Shown here one piece after another: positions 1,155 through 25,478 of a stretch of DNA of 64,000 nt. Location of the stretch: NCBI GenBank assembly GCA_013349405.1, contig DUZS01000001.1, forward strand, positions 186,001 to 250,000. The letters are read 5' to 3'. Position 1 is the first letter of the stretch. Each line of letters starts with the position of its first letter. The notes under the pieces were generated by a model. It saw only the letters and a list, made by a program, of their open reading frames with translations. It did no database searches and was not told where the DNA came from. Position numbers and translations under genes: made by a program. Origin of the DNA: Desulfuromonadales bacterium. Its GTDB lineage: Bacteria > Desulfobacterota > Desulfuromonadia > Geobacterales > Pseudopelobacteraceae.

Positions 1155-1871
1155 ATGAACCTGACTGAAAACAGAGATATTCTTGAAATTATGCAGTCTG
1201 ACCTGGAGCGTGCGCTTAAAAAACCACGAGCAGAACGTCGCTGGGCCATGGCGATTGACCTGAAAAAGTGTATCGGCTGCCATGCATGCACCACAGGGTG
1301 CATGTCAGAAAATCTGACACCACCTGAAATCCACTATCGTCCGGTAAAGGAAGAGGAGCTCGGCACGTTCCCCAATACCGGCATGCGTTTTTTACCCCGT
1401 CCCTGTATGCAGTGCGATGCACCAAGCTGTACCCAGGTATGCCCGGTGACGGCCACCTACAAAAGAGATGACGGGCTGGTCACAATTGACTACGAAAAGT
1501 GCATTGGCTGTCGCTACTGTCTCGTTGCCTGTCCCTACGGTGCCCGTTCGGCAGATGTCGGTCTCTATTTCACCGGGGACTTTCGCGACAAGACGTATGA
1601 AGTAGAGAATTCAGGAGAATATGGAAAAAGGTCGAAACGGACCAGCCACTGGCGTTCACCAATCGGGAATGCCCGTAAATGCCATTTTTGTATCCACCGC
1701 GTTGAAAAAGGCGAGCTGACACGTTGTACGACAACGTGTCTGTCGAGTGCTACGTACTTCGGAGATATTAATGATCCGAAGGCCCTCATTACAAAGTTGA
1801 TTTCAAAAGTCAATGTTATGAAGTACAAGGAAGAGTTCGGGACAAAGCCGATGGTTTTTTATCTGACATAA
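1155..1871 (+). CDS. Four-cluster 4Fe-4S ferredoxin subunit (NrfC/PsrB/DmsB-like)
   Basis: This 238-residue iron-sulfur protein carries electrons between the NrfD-type membrane subunit encoded just upstream and a periplasmic or catalytic partner. Cysteines fall in four groups: C39-C42-C45-C49, C84-C87-C92-C96, C116-C119-C122-C126, and a last group near residues 177-200 (KCHFC then TRCTTTC), giving four predicted [4Fe-4S] clusters. I chose the ATG at 1155 because it follows a GGGAGG ribosome-binding site; an in-frame ATG at 1125 lies inside the upstream gene. It has no obvious Tat signal, so it could face the cytoplasm or travel with a Tat-bearing partner outside the window. The subunit type is clear; the complex it belongs to is inferred. 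Confidence 0.88.
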
Positions 1872-11266: not shown

Positions 11267-11545
11267 ATGCAGTCAATGACAACTATGGATTTGAGAAAGA
11301 ACCTGGGGCAAATCCTTGATATGGTGGCGGAAAAGAACGAGTCCGTGACCATCTCCCGCGCCAACAAACCGCTGGCAGTAATTCTTTCCATTGCCGAATA
11401 TGAGGAGAAGGTTCAGAAAAAAAACAGGGGGCAGAGACTTGAAACACTGTCCGGAGCCATGGATGACTGGCGTGAGCGTAACCGGTCGGTCACAAAGCAG
11501 GTGGATGCTGTGCAGGCGGTGCGAGAGAGCAGGGATTCCCGATGA
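11267..11545 (+). CDS. Phd/YefM-family antitoxin
   Basis: The 92-residue product shows the Phd/YefM N-terminal DNA-binding fold (MTTMDLRKNLGQILDMV...VTISRANKPLAVILS) and a charged, probably disordered C-terminal arm that would wrap the toxin. AAGGAGGAGG precedes the ATG. Its stop overlaps the start of the PIN toxin gene in an ATGA arrangement, which couples translation. It should neutralise that toxin and repress the operon through the dyad in the promoter spacer. The family is clear; the exact cognate interaction is inferred from overlap. Confidence 0.88.
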   Translation: MQSMTTMDLRKNLGQILDMVAEKNESVTISRANKPLAVILSIAEYEEKVQKKNRGQRLETLSGAMDDWRERNRSVTKQVDAVQAVRESRDSR

Positions 11546-11952
11546 TAGTGCTTGATTCTTCTGTTGCACTGAAATGGATCTTTGCCGATGAAGACGGAGC
11601 GGAGCATGCAGAGCGTATCCGCAATGAGCATATCTCGGGTAAAAATGAAATTGCCGTTCCAAGTCTGTTTTTCTACGAAATTGCTAACGTTCTTGCCACC
11701 AAGGTCAAAATCTCCACAGATGAGGCGCTGGAAGCATTCGAGCTTATCAGCGCCTTTGAATTCAACGTTCACGAACTCGACGTTTCCGAATATATGGAGG
11801 CAATGACCCTCGCCATGAAACAGAAGGTCAGTGTCTATGATGCCTGCTATCATCTGCTCGCCAGCCGACTTGGCTGCCATTTTTTTACTGCCGACCGGAA
11901 GTTTTGGGAAAAGGTAAGGGGATTCGGAGTTGCTGAGTTGCAGGGAAGATAA
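11542..11952 (+). CDS. vapC: VapC-like PIN-domain ribonuclease toxin
   Basis: The 136-residue PIN-domain protein should cut RNA, commonly tRNA or rRNA in VapC relatives, when freed from its antitoxin. Acidic metal ligands are visible: the N-terminal Asp (VLDSSVALKW), the central YDACYHLLA and the C-terminal TADRKFW. It overlaps the Phd-type antitoxin by four bases. Length is normal for VapC. The RNA target cannot be deduced. Phd-type rather than VapB-type antitoxin is common for such PIN toxins, so the pair looks intact. Confidence 0.88.
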   Translation: MIVLDSSVALKWIFADEDGAEHAERIRNEHISGKNEIAVPSLFFYEIANVLATKVKISTDEALEAFELISAFEFNVHELDVSEYMEAMTLAMKQKVSVYDACYHLLASRLGCHFFTADRKFWEKVRGFGVAELQGR

Positions 11953-13058: not shown

Positions 13059-13506
13059 TTGCTACATCCAGGAATATTCGGAGTATTCAGGGGAATATAC
13101 ACTCATGAAGAACTTTACCCAAGGGGTGGTGGTTACCTGTTTCAAGGGAGGTTCAACTCCAGCGTCCTCGATGAAATCCATCTGCTTGCCGCTGTGAGTT
13201 TACGTCGGATTAAATCAGGTGCGGGCTGCCATGGTGCCCTGTGCATGGGACTACCCATGGTCGAGTGCTGCTTATCACACGAACCGGCCAAAATCTGATC
13301 CGCTGGTAAAAGATCGCACACATTTACGGGTTGAAACAGACTGGGAAGAGTATCTTTCGGGCGGCATATCACTGGCACTTGGTCAACTGCGCATGGCAAC
13401 GCAAACAGGCCGCCCTGCCGGAGATGATGCGTTTATCGCAAAGATGTCTGACCTGACCGGACGAAACTTGAGAAAAGTAAAGCCCGCCCTGCTGATAAAG
13501 CAATAA
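13059..13506 (+). pseudogene. Broken REP-associated tyrosine transposase (RAYT, Y1_Tnp)
   Basis: Two frames together spell the C-terminal half of a RAYT transposase: GYLFQGRFNSSVLDEIHLL in one frame, then, after a frameshift near 13197-13200, YVGLNQVRAAMVPCAWDYPWSSAAYH and the usual C-terminal region. The family pattern is G-H-L-F-Q-G-R-(F/Y) followed by N-P-V-R-A-G-M-V and (D/E)WPWSS. The N-terminal half with the HUH metal site is missing. RAYTs mobilise REP-type palindromes, and at least four C-rich palindromic repeats occur in this window. The gene is dead by frameshift and truncation. Confidence 0.75.
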
Positions 13507-13655
13507 TCTCTATTTTGTCCCTTGAATCTGAGACGCAAAAAAACCGGGCTTCATATCAACAAATGACATTTCGGCATCCCGCCTGTCTCAATGAAAACCT
13601 TGGCTTTCTCTCCTGCCCTCACGGGCAGTTCAGCTTTTCGCATATCACATGGCAA

Positions 13656-15548: not shown

Positions 15549-15860
15549 TGACCATCCAAAAGCGGACAATTCATTTGCTACAAAACCGGACAAGTCTATT
15601 TGCTCTTGACACAGCAATCTTTATTATGGACTACGAGTCAACATTATTCCTCTGTCGGAAAATCGTGACTACCAATCACTTTCGAAAAATTGATGCAATG
15701 TTCGATATACCCATCCGAATCATCTGAAGGATTTGGAGGCCGCTTTACTCATGCCCAAGAGAGAGTCCAAGGGTAGAGTAGAGAACATCTTTCACCCTTC
15801 CCCTCATCAAACCGGACATGCAATTTTCCCGCGTCCTGCTTTCAGATGTTCTTCCAACCC
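15549..15860. mobile_element. Insertion-sequence and group II intron remnants (probable)
   Basis: At 15558-15605 two similar blocks (GCGGACAATTCATTTGCT and CCGGACAAGTCTATTTGCT) look like the multiple terminal repeats of IS21-type elements. On the minus strand around 15795-15850 the pattern GCGGGAAAATTGCATG-TCCGGTTTGATGAGGGG resembles a segment conserved in bacterial group II intron retroelements. No transposase or reverse transcriptase frame survives. This is pattern memory, not a database match. Confidence 0.4.
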
Positions 15861-15940: not shown

Positions 15941-15969
15941 TTGACACACTGATTTTAATGTTGTAAACG
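15941..15969 (+). promoter_or_regulatory. Putative promoter for the riboswitch-controlled operon
   Basis: TTGACA (15941-15946) is a perfect -35 element; a 17-base spacer puts a weak -10 (TAAACG) at 15964-15969. It lies about 30 bases before the first GEMM-I aptamer, so transcription would run through both riboswitches. Confidence 0.45.
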
Positions 15970-15994
15970 CATAGCGCTCAACACTTAATGAGAA

Positions 15995-16074
15995 GATGAT
16001 CGATAATGCTAAACCATCCGCGAGGATGGGACGGAAAGCCTACAGGGTCTCACCGAGACAGCCGGGATGACGAA
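15995..16074 (+). promoter_or_regulatory. GEMM-I cyclic-dinucleotide riboswitch, copy 1
   Basis: The aptamer shows the GEMM-I signature: GCTAAACC, a CATCC-GCGA-GGATG hairpin, GGGACGGAAAGCC, a second hairpin closed by GTCTC-ACC-GAGAC, and AGCCGGG. The GCGA tetraloop fits the conserved tetraloop-receptor contact. Bases 16000-16066 are identical to 16144-16210 in copy 2. A terminator using the AGCCGGG strand follows. In Geobacter many GEMM-I riboswitches (GEMM-Ib) respond to 3',3'-cGAMP rather than c-di-GMP; the ligand here is inferred from that, not proven. Confidence 0.9.
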
Positions 16075-16110
16075 ATGTCCAAAAAGATATTCAGCCCCGG
16101 CTATTTTTTT
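16060..16110 (+). terminator. Riboswitch 1 expression-platform terminator
   Basis: AGCCGGG, the conserved 3' strand of the aptamer, can pair with CCCGGCT at 16096-16102, followed by seven T residues after one A. Because the same bases are used by the aptamer, ligand binding should prevent the terminator and turn expression on. Confidence 0.75.
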
Positions 16111-16138
16111 GCCTGATCATCCCAGCTCAAACATTCGC

Positions 16139-16221
16139 AGTTCTCGATAATGCTAAACCATCCGCGAGGATGGGACGGAAAGCCTACAGGGTCTCACCGA
16201 GACAGCCGGGTTGCCGATAGA
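16139..16221 (+). promoter_or_regulatory. GEMM-I cyclic-dinucleotide riboswitch, copy 2
   Basis: It repeats copy 1 exactly over 67 bases (16144-16210) and continues with GGGTTGCCGA, closer to the family consensus at the 3' edge. A second terminator follows and then the ribosome-binding site of the LamG gene. Two aptamer-terminator units in series should give a tighter or steeper response than one. Confidence 0.9.
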
Positions 16222-16255
16222 TAATAGTCTCATATAATTGGCCCCGGCATCTTTT
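16205..16255 (+). terminator. Riboswitch 2 expression-platform terminator
   Basis: GCCGGG of the aptamer (16205-16210) can pair with CCCGGC (16243-16248), followed by ATCTTTTT. As with copy 1, aptamer folding and termination are mutually exclusive. Confidence 0.72.
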
Positions 16256-16312
16256 TGTCCGGACGTATCGTTCACCATCAGGCACCATTTCACTGAACAG
16301 AGGAGAGAAAAA

Positions 16313-17638
16313 ATGTCAAACAAAATGACTCGAACAGTCAGAGCAGGTCTTGTCGGAGCACTGCTTTTCGGGGGAGCAGCAGTTGTACAGGCGGCCCAGT
16401 CCTTTGATCTGGCAAAAGATTTTGCCATCAAGAAAAACCCGAACGGTCCATGGAGTTATGGCTACTCTGCGACTCGCGGATCCGCTTTCAAGCTTTTCAA
16501 CACAACATTCGATCAGATGATCTATGGCGGACACATGATTGCCTGGCAGCTGCCTTATGGCGATCCAACGTTTGCCGGGGCAGAACAGCCAATCGTCAAG
16601 GCTCTGGAAGCTATTGACCAACATTGGTCTGTCTTTACACCAACAGGTACGGTTACCATGCACCCCGGACCTGCCGGAGACAACAGCGTGATCCGCTGGA
16701 CCGCTCCCGAAACAGCGACCTACAAAATCGACGGCGCATTTACCGGGCGCGATATCAACGGGACTACCACCGATGTTGCCGTACTCAGTGGCAACGTTCA
16801 GATATTCTCTGAAAATGTCTTCGGTTTTAATAACCCCTACCCGTTCACCGCTACCATGCCGGTGCATAAAGGCCAAACCGTCGATTTTACTGTCGGCTAC
16901 GGCGGCAATGGCTATATATGCGATTCCACCGGCATTGCCGCAACAATCACCAAAATCAGCGGTAAAGTATGCCTTCCTCCGACAGGCCAGATCGCCTGGT
17001 GGCCGGGTGATGGTTCCGCTGCGGATATCACCGGGGGCAATAACGGCACGCCGAACGGCGTAAGCTACGCTGCCGGAGTTGCCGGTCAGGCGTTCAGCTT
17101 TAACGGCACCAGCAATGTGACCGTTCCGGACAGCGAACTTTTCACATTTGGCATCAAGCCGTTCACCATGGATCTCTGGGTAAACTTCAACGAGTTGCAG
17201 GGGCGTGATCCCTTTATCGCCCACGATGACGGCGGCGGTTACTACAATAAATGGATTTTCTGGTACGATGCGCTGGCAACCGATTATGGTCATAATACGG
17301 ATGTTGCTGGTCCCGCGCTGCGCCTCCATGTCAACGGTGATGGCGGCAACGTTGACCCCATTTCCTATCCGTGGAACCCGACACCGGGCAAATGGTATCA
17401 CGTGGCCCTTACCCGCAGCGGCAACGATTTTACCCTGTACATTGACGGTGCGGCGGTGAAAAAAACCAACGTATCGGTGTCATTGCCCAACCCGACGTCA
17501 CCACTCACTATCGGCAGCGCCGAGGCATACAACCTGAATGGTCTTGTTGACGAAGTAGAAATGTACAATCGCGCCCTCAGCGCAAAAGAAATCAAATCAC
17601 TCTATCTGGATGGTAAAAACGGCAGATGCAAAAAATAA
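16313..17638 (+). CDS. Secreted LamG/concanavalin-fold surface protein
   Basis: The 441-residue product has a signal peptide (ending VVQAA|QS). An N-terminal beta domain of about 200 residues (FDLAKDFAIKKNPNGPWSYG start) resembles those found in secreted carbohydrate-binding or extracellular-matrix proteins. The C-terminal 215 residues form a LamG-like jelly roll (IAWWPGDGSAADITGGNNG, FTMDLWVNF, WYHVALTRSGNDFTLYIDG, VDEVEMYNRALSAKEIKSLY). It is probably a secreted lectin or adhesin. GAGGAG precedes ATG at 16313; the frame open from 16238 would overlap the terminator and is unlikely. Two GEMM-I riboswitches lie directly upstream, so cyclic dinucleotide levels should set its expression. The next gene, 46 bases on, is also secreted. 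Confidence 0.82.
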   Translation: MSNKMTRTVRAGLVGALLFGGAAVVQAAQSFDLAKDFAIKKNPNGPWSYGYSATRGSAFKLFNTTFDQMIYGGHMIAWQLPYGDPTFAGAEQPIVKALEAIDQHWSVFTPTGTVTMHPGPAGDNSVIRWTAPETATYKIDGAFTGRDINGTTTDVAVLSGNVQIFSENVFGFNNPYPFTATMPVHKGQTVDFTVGYGGNGYICDSTGIAATITKISGKVCLPPTGQIAWWPGDGSAADITGGNNGTPNGVSYAAGVAGQAFSFNGTSNVTVPDSELFTFGIKPFTMDLWVNFNELQGRDPFIAHDDGGGYYNKWIFWYDALATDYGHNTDVAGPALRLHVNGDGGNVDPISYPWNPTPGKWYHVALTRSGNDFTLYIDGAAVKKTNVSVSLPNPTSPLTIGSAEAYNLNGLVDEVEMYNRALSAKEIKSLYLDGKNGRCKK

Positions 17639-17684: not shown

Positions 17685-18542
17685 ATGAAAAAGAGTCGTT
17701 CCGCCGTATCCCGTATGCTTCTCGTAGCACTGTTCGTTCTGGTAGTGGCAGCGGGCAATGTCCTTGCCTCTGAGATGTTTTTTGAGAGCTTCAATGCAGC
17801 CGGTGTTGATAACGGCCCGACAGTGGACACCATCTTTACCCTTACCAAACCAACTGCAATTTCCTCGATTGTTAACTACCACTGGAATTATTCCCAAGGT
17901 CAGGACCCGAATCTTGTTGCCGGCTGGATCGGCATCGAGCAGATCGTAGCGGGAGCTGCAAATGTGGAAATGGGCAAATGGCCGGCAGTCGGCAGAGTCG
18001 GTGCTTATGGCATGACCAATGTTCTGTGGGTGGCAACTGCCAACGTGCTTCTCGGACCGGGAACCTACAAAGTAACCGATTCAAATCCTGAAACCTGGTC
18101 ATATGCAGCTTACAGTTACGCTCCTTATGGGTGGCCTGACGGCGCAAACTGGGAAATCAATAAAGGCTTCAGCCAAATCTTCTCCGCTGCCTCGGCGACA
18201 GCAACCGTACCGGCAAATGGTGCAACTGCAGTATCAACAAGGCAGCCGCTGACAGTAAACTTCAGCGAAAACGTGGTACAAGGTCCGGCCTGGGACAAAA
18301 TTACCGCTACGTATCTTAATTACTCCGGAACAAAACCGGTCGTTACCACGATACCGCTGAGCAAAAGTCTCAGGAACAATGTGCTGAAACTTACTCCCAA
18401 AACTCCATTCAAGGGGCATGCTCTGATAACTGTTACAATACCGGCCGGTAGCGTTGTTGATCTTGGTGGTACTTCCAGTAGTGGAGCCCTCGATCCAGCC
18501 CCTTCAAAGGCATACCAGTACACGTTCACCACAGCACCGTAG
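17685..18542 (+). CDS. Secreted protein with C-terminal SbsA Ig-like domain
   Basis: The 285-residue product has a signal peptide (ending NVLAS|EM). The middle 150 residues are aromatic and Gly-rich with YHWNYSQGQ and GTYKVTDSNPETW patterns that I cannot place. The last 100 residues match the Ig-like_5/SbsA type (TVPANGATAVSTRQPLTVNFSENV...LKLTPKTPFKGHALITVTIPAG), common in surface-layer and adhesive proteins. AAGGAG precedes the ATG. It lies 46 bases after the LamG gene without a terminator, so it should be in the same riboswitch-controlled transcript. A role in the extracellular matrix or surface attachment is likely but inferred. Confidence 0.78.
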   Translation: MKKSRSAVSRMLLVALFVLVVAAGNVLASEMFFESFNAAGVDNGPTVDTIFTLTKPTAISSIVNYHWNYSQGQDPNLVAGWIGIEQIVAGAANVEMGKWPAVGRVGAYGMTNVLWVATANVLLGPGTYKVTDSNPETWSYAAYSYAPYGWPDGANWEINKGFSQIFSAASATATVPANGATAVSTRQPLTVNFSENVVQGPAWDKITATYLNYSGTKPVVTTIPLSKSLRNNVLKLTPKTPFKGHALITVTIPAGSVVDLGGTSSSGALDPAPSKAYQYTFTTAP

Positions 18543-24789: not shown

Positions 24790-25050
24790 ATGCTTTCAGT
24801 GGGAATCAAGGAGTTAAAGACCAGGTTGAGCAGTTATATTGATTCGGTCGAGCAGGGCGAGGAGGTTGTTGTCACTGAACGTGGTCGTGAAGTTGCGCTC
24901 ATTATTCCTATTACTCCTGAAAGGCGTGCCTTGGCTGGTCTTGTCAGGGAGGGGAGGGCTCGTTATGGAAGCGGTAAGCCAAGGGGTGTTTCAGGAATCG
25001 AACTGATAGGAAAACCACTTTCAGAGACTGTGCTTGAGGAACGCCAGTGA
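24790..25050 (+). CDS. Phd/YefM-family antitoxin
   Basis: The 86-residue protein has the Phd/YefM N-terminal fold with the classic sequence (VGIKELKTRLSSYIDSVEQGEEVVVTERGREVALIIPI) and a C-terminal toxin-binding arm. Its stop overlaps the PIN toxin start by four bases. A perfect dyad lies upstream, suitable for autorepression. It is not closely alike to the antitoxin at 11267, so the two modules are separate acquisitions rather than a recent duplication. Confidence 0.88.
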   Translation: MLSVGIKELKTRLSSYIDSVEQGEEVVVTERGREVALIIPITPERRALAGLVREGRARYGSGKPRGVSGIELIGKPLSETVLEERQ

Positions 25051-25478
25051 TTCTGTATCTGGATACCAGCAGCCTTGTAAAGCTGTATGTGCCGGAGCCG
25101 GATGCGGATATGATAAAAACTCTGGTTGCGGAAGCAGCATCAGTAGTAACAAGCCGTATCACTTGTCCGGAGTTTTATTCAGCGGCAACGCGACGCCTGA
25201 ACAGTAAGGAAATTACCAGAAAAAATTACGAGCTTCTCTGTGCTGCCTTTTCTGCTGACTGGCAGCAGATGTATGCGCTTGATTTTGATGAAATTGAAGC
25301 GGGCAAGCTGGTTTGTAAGCATGGACTGCGCGGAGCCGACGCCATTCATCTTGCGTCGGCAACGCAACTGGTTCGTTGTGACGCTTCGCTGGATATAGTT
25401 TTTTCCTCTGCTGACCGGAAGTTGAATGAGGCTGCAGAAAAAGAAGGGTTTACGCTTGAAGTCGGCCAACGCCTTTAA
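25047..25478 (+). CDS. vapC: VapC-like PIN-domain ribonuclease toxin
   Basis: The 143-residue PIN protein has the motif LYLDTSSLVKLY with the first catalytic Asp, the acidic CPEFYSA position, GADAIHLASA, and the late SADRKLNEAA. It should act as an Mg2+-dependent RNase when its antitoxin is lost. It starts within the antitoxin stop (ATGA-type overlap, GTG start). Length and motif order are normal for VapC. The target RNA is not deducible. Confidence 0.88.
   Translation: MILYLDTSSLVKLYVPEPDADMIKTLVAEAASVVTSRITCPEFYSAATRRLNSKEITRKNYELLCAAFSADWQQMYALDFDEIEAGKLVCKHGLRGADAIHLASATQLVRCDASLDIVFSSADRKLNEAAEKEGFTLEVGQRL

Follow-up and report, generated by a model that had tools for sequence, protein, structure and literature searches.

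Two closely similar aptamers of one riboswitch class stand in series before genes for secreted proteins in the window, the whole 64,000-nucleotide stretch of DNA analyzed here. This arrangement introduces two questions, namely which second messenger the pair senses and whether both copies are working sensors. We addressed them by covariance-model searches, folding and comparison with related genomes.

Two GEMM-I riboswitches in series

The Rfam covariance scan gave two plus-strand matches to the c-di-GMP-I (GEMM-I) family RF01051, at 15998–16074 (copy 1; 44.5 bits, E = 1.9e-05) and at 16142–16218 (copy 2; 51.6 bits, E = 3.6e-07). Both exceed the gathering score of 35 bits, in agreement with the initial annotation, which had placed two GEMM-I riboswitches in series here. 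In other words, one gene is preceded by two complete aptamers of the same class, and each of them is coupled to an expression platform of its own. We also considered the family RF03167 (c-di-GMP-I-GGC), along whose whole model both copies align. However, their scores of 46.1 (copy 1) and 57.4 bits (copy 2) fall under its gathering score of 59 bits, so that membership was rejected, and both copies carry an A at the A47 position, where the RF03167 consensus has G. Matches to SAM-II, NEAT1_2, SCARNA7 and a plastid intron were far under cut-off and were taken as chance.

The two copies have in common an exact run of 67 bases, which starts at 16000 and at 16144, and they are 97% identical over 74 bases. 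The first mismatch is A16067 versus T16211, and a further one, A16070 versus C16214, lies four bases past the run, at the position that pairs with the ligand. The copies had previously been described as identical; this holds for the 67 shared bases, but the difference at the contact base just beyond them had been overlooked.

Further elements are found nearby. On the minus strand, 13570–13644 holds a third GEMM-I match, an eroded one that scores 33.5 bits (under the 35-bit cut-off) and has G as its specificity base, and just beyond it a short plus-strand ORF (13219–13506) looks by eye like a transposase fragment, without a Pfam match. Directly upstream of the riboswitch pair, a group II intron remnant (RF00029, 41.5 bits) lies on the minus strand at 15773–15843, which suggests mobile-element debris at the riboswitch site.

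Folding placed a terminator behind each aptamer. In terminator 1 (16060–16110, plus strand), AGCCGGG at 16060–16066 pairs with CCCGGCT at 16096–16102, followed by a T tract at 16104–16110; in terminator 2 (16205–16256, plus strand), GCCGGG at 16205–16210 pairs with CCCGGC at 16243–16248, followed by a T-rich tail. These segments fold at −18.7 and −26.1 kcal/mol, respectively, which is 2.8 and 4.3 SD better than shuffles, and shorter cuts of them fold at −17.5 and −20.3 kcal/mol. Neither was recovered by a simple terminator scan, which gave 0 hits where 1.0 would arise by chance; the scan accepts loops of 3–8 bases, and those of the two terminators are presumably too long for it. Without ligand, the terminator-bearing fold is favored, at −34.5 kcal/mol for copy 1 and −37.3 kcal/mol for copy 2; when the aptamer helices are imposed, the values are −25.6 and −30.3 kcal/mol. 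Folded by themselves, the aptamer segments reach −19.0 and −24.7 kcal/mol. Alternative folds, each with a T-rich stretch, are seen for both units, which bears out the earlier proposal that each aptamer has its own terminator reusing the AGCCGGG strand.

Part of this strand sits in helix P3 of the Rfam structure. Given that P3 and the terminator have the strand in common, the ligand-bound aptamer and the terminator should be mutually exclusive, and an ON switch is predicted. Without ligand, each AGCCGGG strand would pair with the downstream CCCGGC arm and halt transcription; ligand binding would keep the strand in P3, and the polymerase would pass. The pilM riboswitch of G. metallireducens has been reported to be an ON switch with the same strand-sharing logic (PMC9262584). 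From the modelled folds, we infer the ON direction for both units of the window.

The predicted target gene (16313–17638, plus strand) encodes a protein of 441 aa, probably secreted, with a signal-peptide-like start by eye and a C-terminal LamG domain (PF13385, E = 4.3e-26). Starting 46 bases past it on the same strand, the probable second gene of the operon (17685–18542) encodes an Ig-like (Big_5) protein (PF13205, E = 1.2e-13), also with a signal-peptide-like start. These matches, on the strand of the riboswitches, uphold the LamG and Ig-like secreted proteins that had been noted downstream, and we infer that the riboswitches control this operon. The LamG protein was matched in 11 of the 39 genomes of the genus, the host's own included; the sole full-length match is that of the window, and the others are partial, covering mostly the LamG half. 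The LamG protein was therefore rejected as a conserved riboswitch partner within the genus.

No promoter is established for the pair. A weak candidate, TTGACA-17-TAAACG, lies upstream of copy 1 (15941–15969, plus strand), and it is one of 13 matches in the window at up to one mismatch, with 10.5 expected by chance, that is, at chance level. A separate promoter scan gave four promoter-like sites versus 1.1 expected, including TTGCCG-16-TATAAT at 16211–16238 and a weaker site at 15978–16007 that overlaps aptamer 1. Elsewhere in the window, two pairs of small same-strand ORFs (11267–11952 and 24790–25478) resemble antitoxin–toxin pairs of the PIN type, as judged by eye from the ORF list.

Specificity base and predicted ligand

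In the structure of a Geobacter cGAMP riboswitch, A14 immediately precedes P2 (C15–G40) and touches the ligand (PMC6274999). Based on the mapping from this structure, the contact bases of copy 1 on the plus strand are G16008 (Vc2 G20) and A16070 (Vc2 C92 position); those of copy 2, also on the plus strand, are G16152 (Vc2 G20) and C16214 (Vc2 C92), mapped by position and confirmed in the sequence. Both copies have G at Vc2 position 20, and neither has the A (position 20, or A14 of the Geobacter structure) of the cGAMP-type GEMM-Ib aptamers. Because of this G, the ligand of both copies is predicted to be c-di-GMP.

It has previously been reported that the A20G change in the Geobacter aptamer Gmet_0970 turns its selectivity from cGAMP to c-di-GMP (PMC6456294), and that D. 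acetoxidans aptamers with G prefer c-di-GMP (PMC9481103). The Gmet_0970 mutant resembles the window copies in that it combines G at position 20 with a Geobacter aptamer of the cGAMP type; however, it is laboratory-made and single, whereas the window aptamers are natural and in tandem. Position 20 is also described as a selectivity factor and no hard filter (PMC9262584), and a riboswitch of G. sulfurreducens has been reported to respond to both messengers (PMC6456294), so that specificity for c-di-GMP is not assured.

The rest of the aptamer resembles the Geobacter cGAMP subtype in both copies. We examined how often this backbone carries each base. A pattern search in 141 genomes of the order gave 889 A-type backbone matches in 121 genomes and 13 G-type matches in 12 genomes. 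The genome of the window was the one among the 141 to give a G/G pair spaced in a similar way. We also compared 25 tandem pairs, consisting of five from the host and 20 fetched loci that were not selected by base (two of the 20 share an aptamer); 24 of them are A/A, and the window pair is G/G. This count excludes the locus L030, whose A/A pair precedes a third, G-carrying aptamer built on a different backbone.

Judged by its riboswitches, the host is probably a relative of Geobacter. Its assembly (3.43 Mb, 60 contigs) holds 22 GEMM-I matches, 21 of them above cut-off, and five tandem pairs by spacing, on contigs C1, C7, C13, C14 and C18. The specificity base is A in 15 and G in seven of the 22 aptamers, a count that includes divergent aptamers judged by eye (L001, L004, L016, L019 and L022). 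There are also 21 GGDEF matches, and among the 18 whose motif was examined (all except L088, L102 and L105) the GD position reads GS in L103 and GN in L096. A serine, S347, has been reported for the cGAMP synthase GacA (PMC6456294). Going by the motif, the serine of L103 appears to occupy the same position, and L103 (G000:C44:3864-4334) is a candidate Hypr-type cGAMP synthase. With a GS-type protein among its GGDEF matches, both messengers are plausible in the host.

These results bear on 3',3'-cGAMP, the messenger sensed by most Geobacter GEMM-Ib aptamers and also named in the initial annotation, as a possible ligand of the pair. The cGAMP-type backbone, the 15 A-type aptamers among the 22 host matches and the GGDEF protein with the serine reported for cGAMP synthases all speak for it. 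However, the comparison of the specificity base gives G, not A, in both copies, and it is the A-to-G change at this base that flips the selectivity of Gmet_0970 (PMC6456294). We consider cGAMP a very improbable ligand of this pair.

The contact base of copy 1

In the Geobacter structure, the junction consists of J1/2 (A9–A14) and J1/3 (G74–C75); C75 bonds the ligand guanine, and the two main bonds between them are present in 97–99% of simulation frames (PMC6274999). The two unpaired bases before P1 in the RF03167 alignment are G-A in copy 1 and G-C in copy 2. The canonical contact set G, A, C is complete in copy 2, and the set of copy 1 is G, A, A. Across the 141 genomes of the order, 886 of the 887 backbone matches, from 121 genomes, have C at the contact position, and copy 1 is the single match that does not.

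A contig scan, in which records of the host's own genome were possibly excluded, gave one more non-C case, L109, with A and U as contacts. Outside the strict backbone, other bases do take the place of C: L016, from the host genome, and L109 have U, and the third L030 aptamer has G. G20 and C92 have been described as less conserved than A47 (PMC9049102). At the equivalent position of V. cholerae Vc1, C104G abolished the capture of c-di-GMP in vitro, and neither C104G nor C104A lowered reporter activity in cells (PMC4744006). Copy 1 is probably impaired as a sensor, but it is not certainly dead, because its looser relatives vary at the contact base.

With moderate confidence, we propose that the locus is a tandem transcriptional ON pair of c-di-GMP-I riboswitches in which copy 1 is a weak c-di-GMP sensor and the operon is gated mainly by copy 2. 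The A that replaces the C pairing with the ligand guanine would probably weaken copy 1 as a sensor and leave the copy 1 terminator to attenuate largely without regard to ligand. Expression of the secreted LamG and Ig-like proteins would then depend mainly on copy 2. A copy 1 that terminated permanently would leave the operon nearly off, and this counts against the proposal.

The initial annotation had suggested a steep or AND-type switch. Such a switch depends on having two sensors that work, and A16070 of copy 1 stands where 886 of 887 matches have C. In the fuller form of this reading, c-di-GMP would be bound by both aptamers, which together would make a pseudo-cooperative ON switch of greater steepness and stringency. 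Pairs of c-di-GMP-I riboswitches in tandem are common, with 347 doublets and 12 triplets class-wide (PMC9481103), and a natural triple tandem controls more tightly than the double or the single (PMC4759541). In addition, copy 1 scores above the Rfam cut-off, and other well-scoring aptamers also lack C at the contact base. Within the backbone, however, copy 1 is alone in this among the matches of the order, and we regard two working copies as rather unlikely.

Both copies would also work if A16070 were a sequencing or assembly error and the true base were C. The A is a single-base singleton in a 60-contig assembly, as would be expected of an error; however, the neighboring difference at 16067 shows real divergence of the copies at this place, and an error seems improbable to us. 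Alternatively, copy 1, with its G, A, A set, might have gained a different ligand, which would make the pair a two-input gate. Changes of contact bases shift the choice of ligand in this class, and an engineered G20A/C92U mutant is reported to bind c-di-AMP (PMC9049102). However, the G, A, A set was seen once in the backbone searches, and the contig scan (own genome possibly excluded) gave no other, so we give this possibility hardly any weight. As a separate observation, the A/U pair of that engineered mutant is found naturally at the two contact bases of L109, a Geobacteraceae aptamer at 1432–1506 of JAMXLF010000091.1.

Tandem GEMM-I riboswitches in Geobacter have already been published, and the window adds two unusual bases to them. 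G. sulfurreducens has 17 GEMM-I riboswitches, several of them in tandem (PMC6456294). Its GEMM-I/GEMM-Ib tandems, for example upstream of GSU2885, likewise have two serial aptamers before an operon, and transcription drops at the riboswitches without ligand (PMC6456294), as is also predicted for the window pair. By their published description they answer cGAMP, whereas both aptamers of the window carry G at the specificity base, and copy 1 also departs from C92 with an A. The triple tandem Bc3-5 of Bacillus thuringiensis likewise lines up complete c-di-GMP ON riboswitches ahead of a single operon (PMC4759541); by its published description, it differs in having three units versus the two of the window, and other target genes. 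These results suggest that, within a natural regulon, a signalling RNA could be shifted between second messengers by one base, and that two seeming duplicates can differ where they touch the ligand.

Origin of the copies and mixed tandems in related genomes

The near-identity of the copies had been taken as a sign of recent duplication or gene conversion. We compared 31 tandem pairs over a 61-base core, a set that leaves aside the third L030 aptamer and those aptamers whose neighbor lies about 1 kb away (L046, L049, L074 and L075). The window pair is the most alike (61/61), but two other pairs reach 60/61 and eight more 58/60 or 59/61, so that 10 of the 30 others are at about 0.967 or above. 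Over the full 77-base match, the window pair agrees at 72/77, fewer positions than the 74/77 of a second host pair. With A in place of G, the window core recurs verbatim in at least seven aptamers among the matches listed, all from other genera, and likewise in four fetched loci (L034, L037, L039 and L052) from other genera. The alignment score of the 5' flanks of the copies is reached by 156 of 500 shuffles, so that it does not stand out. That of the 3' flanks is reached by 2 of 500, a likeness that may be explained by shared terminator constraints.

Given that near-identical tandems are common and that the core recurs with A elsewhere, the identity is weak evidence for a recent duplication. 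Together with 5' flanks at the level of shuffles, this means that duplication or gene conversion as read from the identity is not supported. Judged by these alignments, the likeness of the copies is mostly that of a strongly conserved family consensus. The one real hint is the rare G in both copies, which suggests one common origin.

We also analyzed the 11 G-type matches found in other genomes. Six of them have an A-type aptamer no more than 300 bases away in the same orientation. The order is A then G in L076, L077, L078, L079 and L082, and G then A in L085. L076, L077 and L078 are similar in sequence and belong to one genus, and they are probably one ancestral pair. As for the others, an A-type aptamer lies about 1 kb upstream of the G-type one in L074 and L075, no second aptamer was found within the loci L080 and L081, and the G-type match of L083 is at a contig end. 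The genes downstream were examined by eye in four of the six mixed tandems. Judged from the translations, their products include proteins that carry CxxCH motifs or repeats of Ig- or fibronectin-like segments in L078, L079 and L085, and a lipoprotein resembling an L,D-transpeptidase in L082.

If the bases mean the same here as elsewhere, then the six mixed tandems are predicted to be two-signal gates. More broadly, and only tentatively, we suggest that Geobacter-like genomes might redirect a shared cGAMP backbone to c-di-GMP through a single base change and set A-type and G-type aptamers one after the other. The upstream sensor of the window pair would then have become an attenuator after the loss or change of its ligand base. 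The six other genomes, probably with fewer origins, would hold natural gates that require cGAMP and c-di-GMP together, placed in the cases examined ahead of surface or electron-transfer genes. The combination of c-di-GMP and c-AMP-GMP is absent from the logic gates in Table 2 of a review of tandem riboswitches (PMC9481103). A literature search by title and start of abstract gave no paper on mixed c-di-GMP/cGAMP tandems; the two founding papers of 2015 lie outside its coverage, and we claim no novelty. If the mixed tandems do bind two messengers, they would offer, in relatives of Geobacter, a simple and testable case of genes that heed both cGAMP and c-di-GMP, and, if true, this would bear on how brief contact with metal particles is separated from lasting biofilm growth.

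Finally, L030 is itself a triple (1300–1713, minus strand), in which two A-type aptamers are followed by the third, of the other backbone, with G at both contacts and a score of 63.2 bits.
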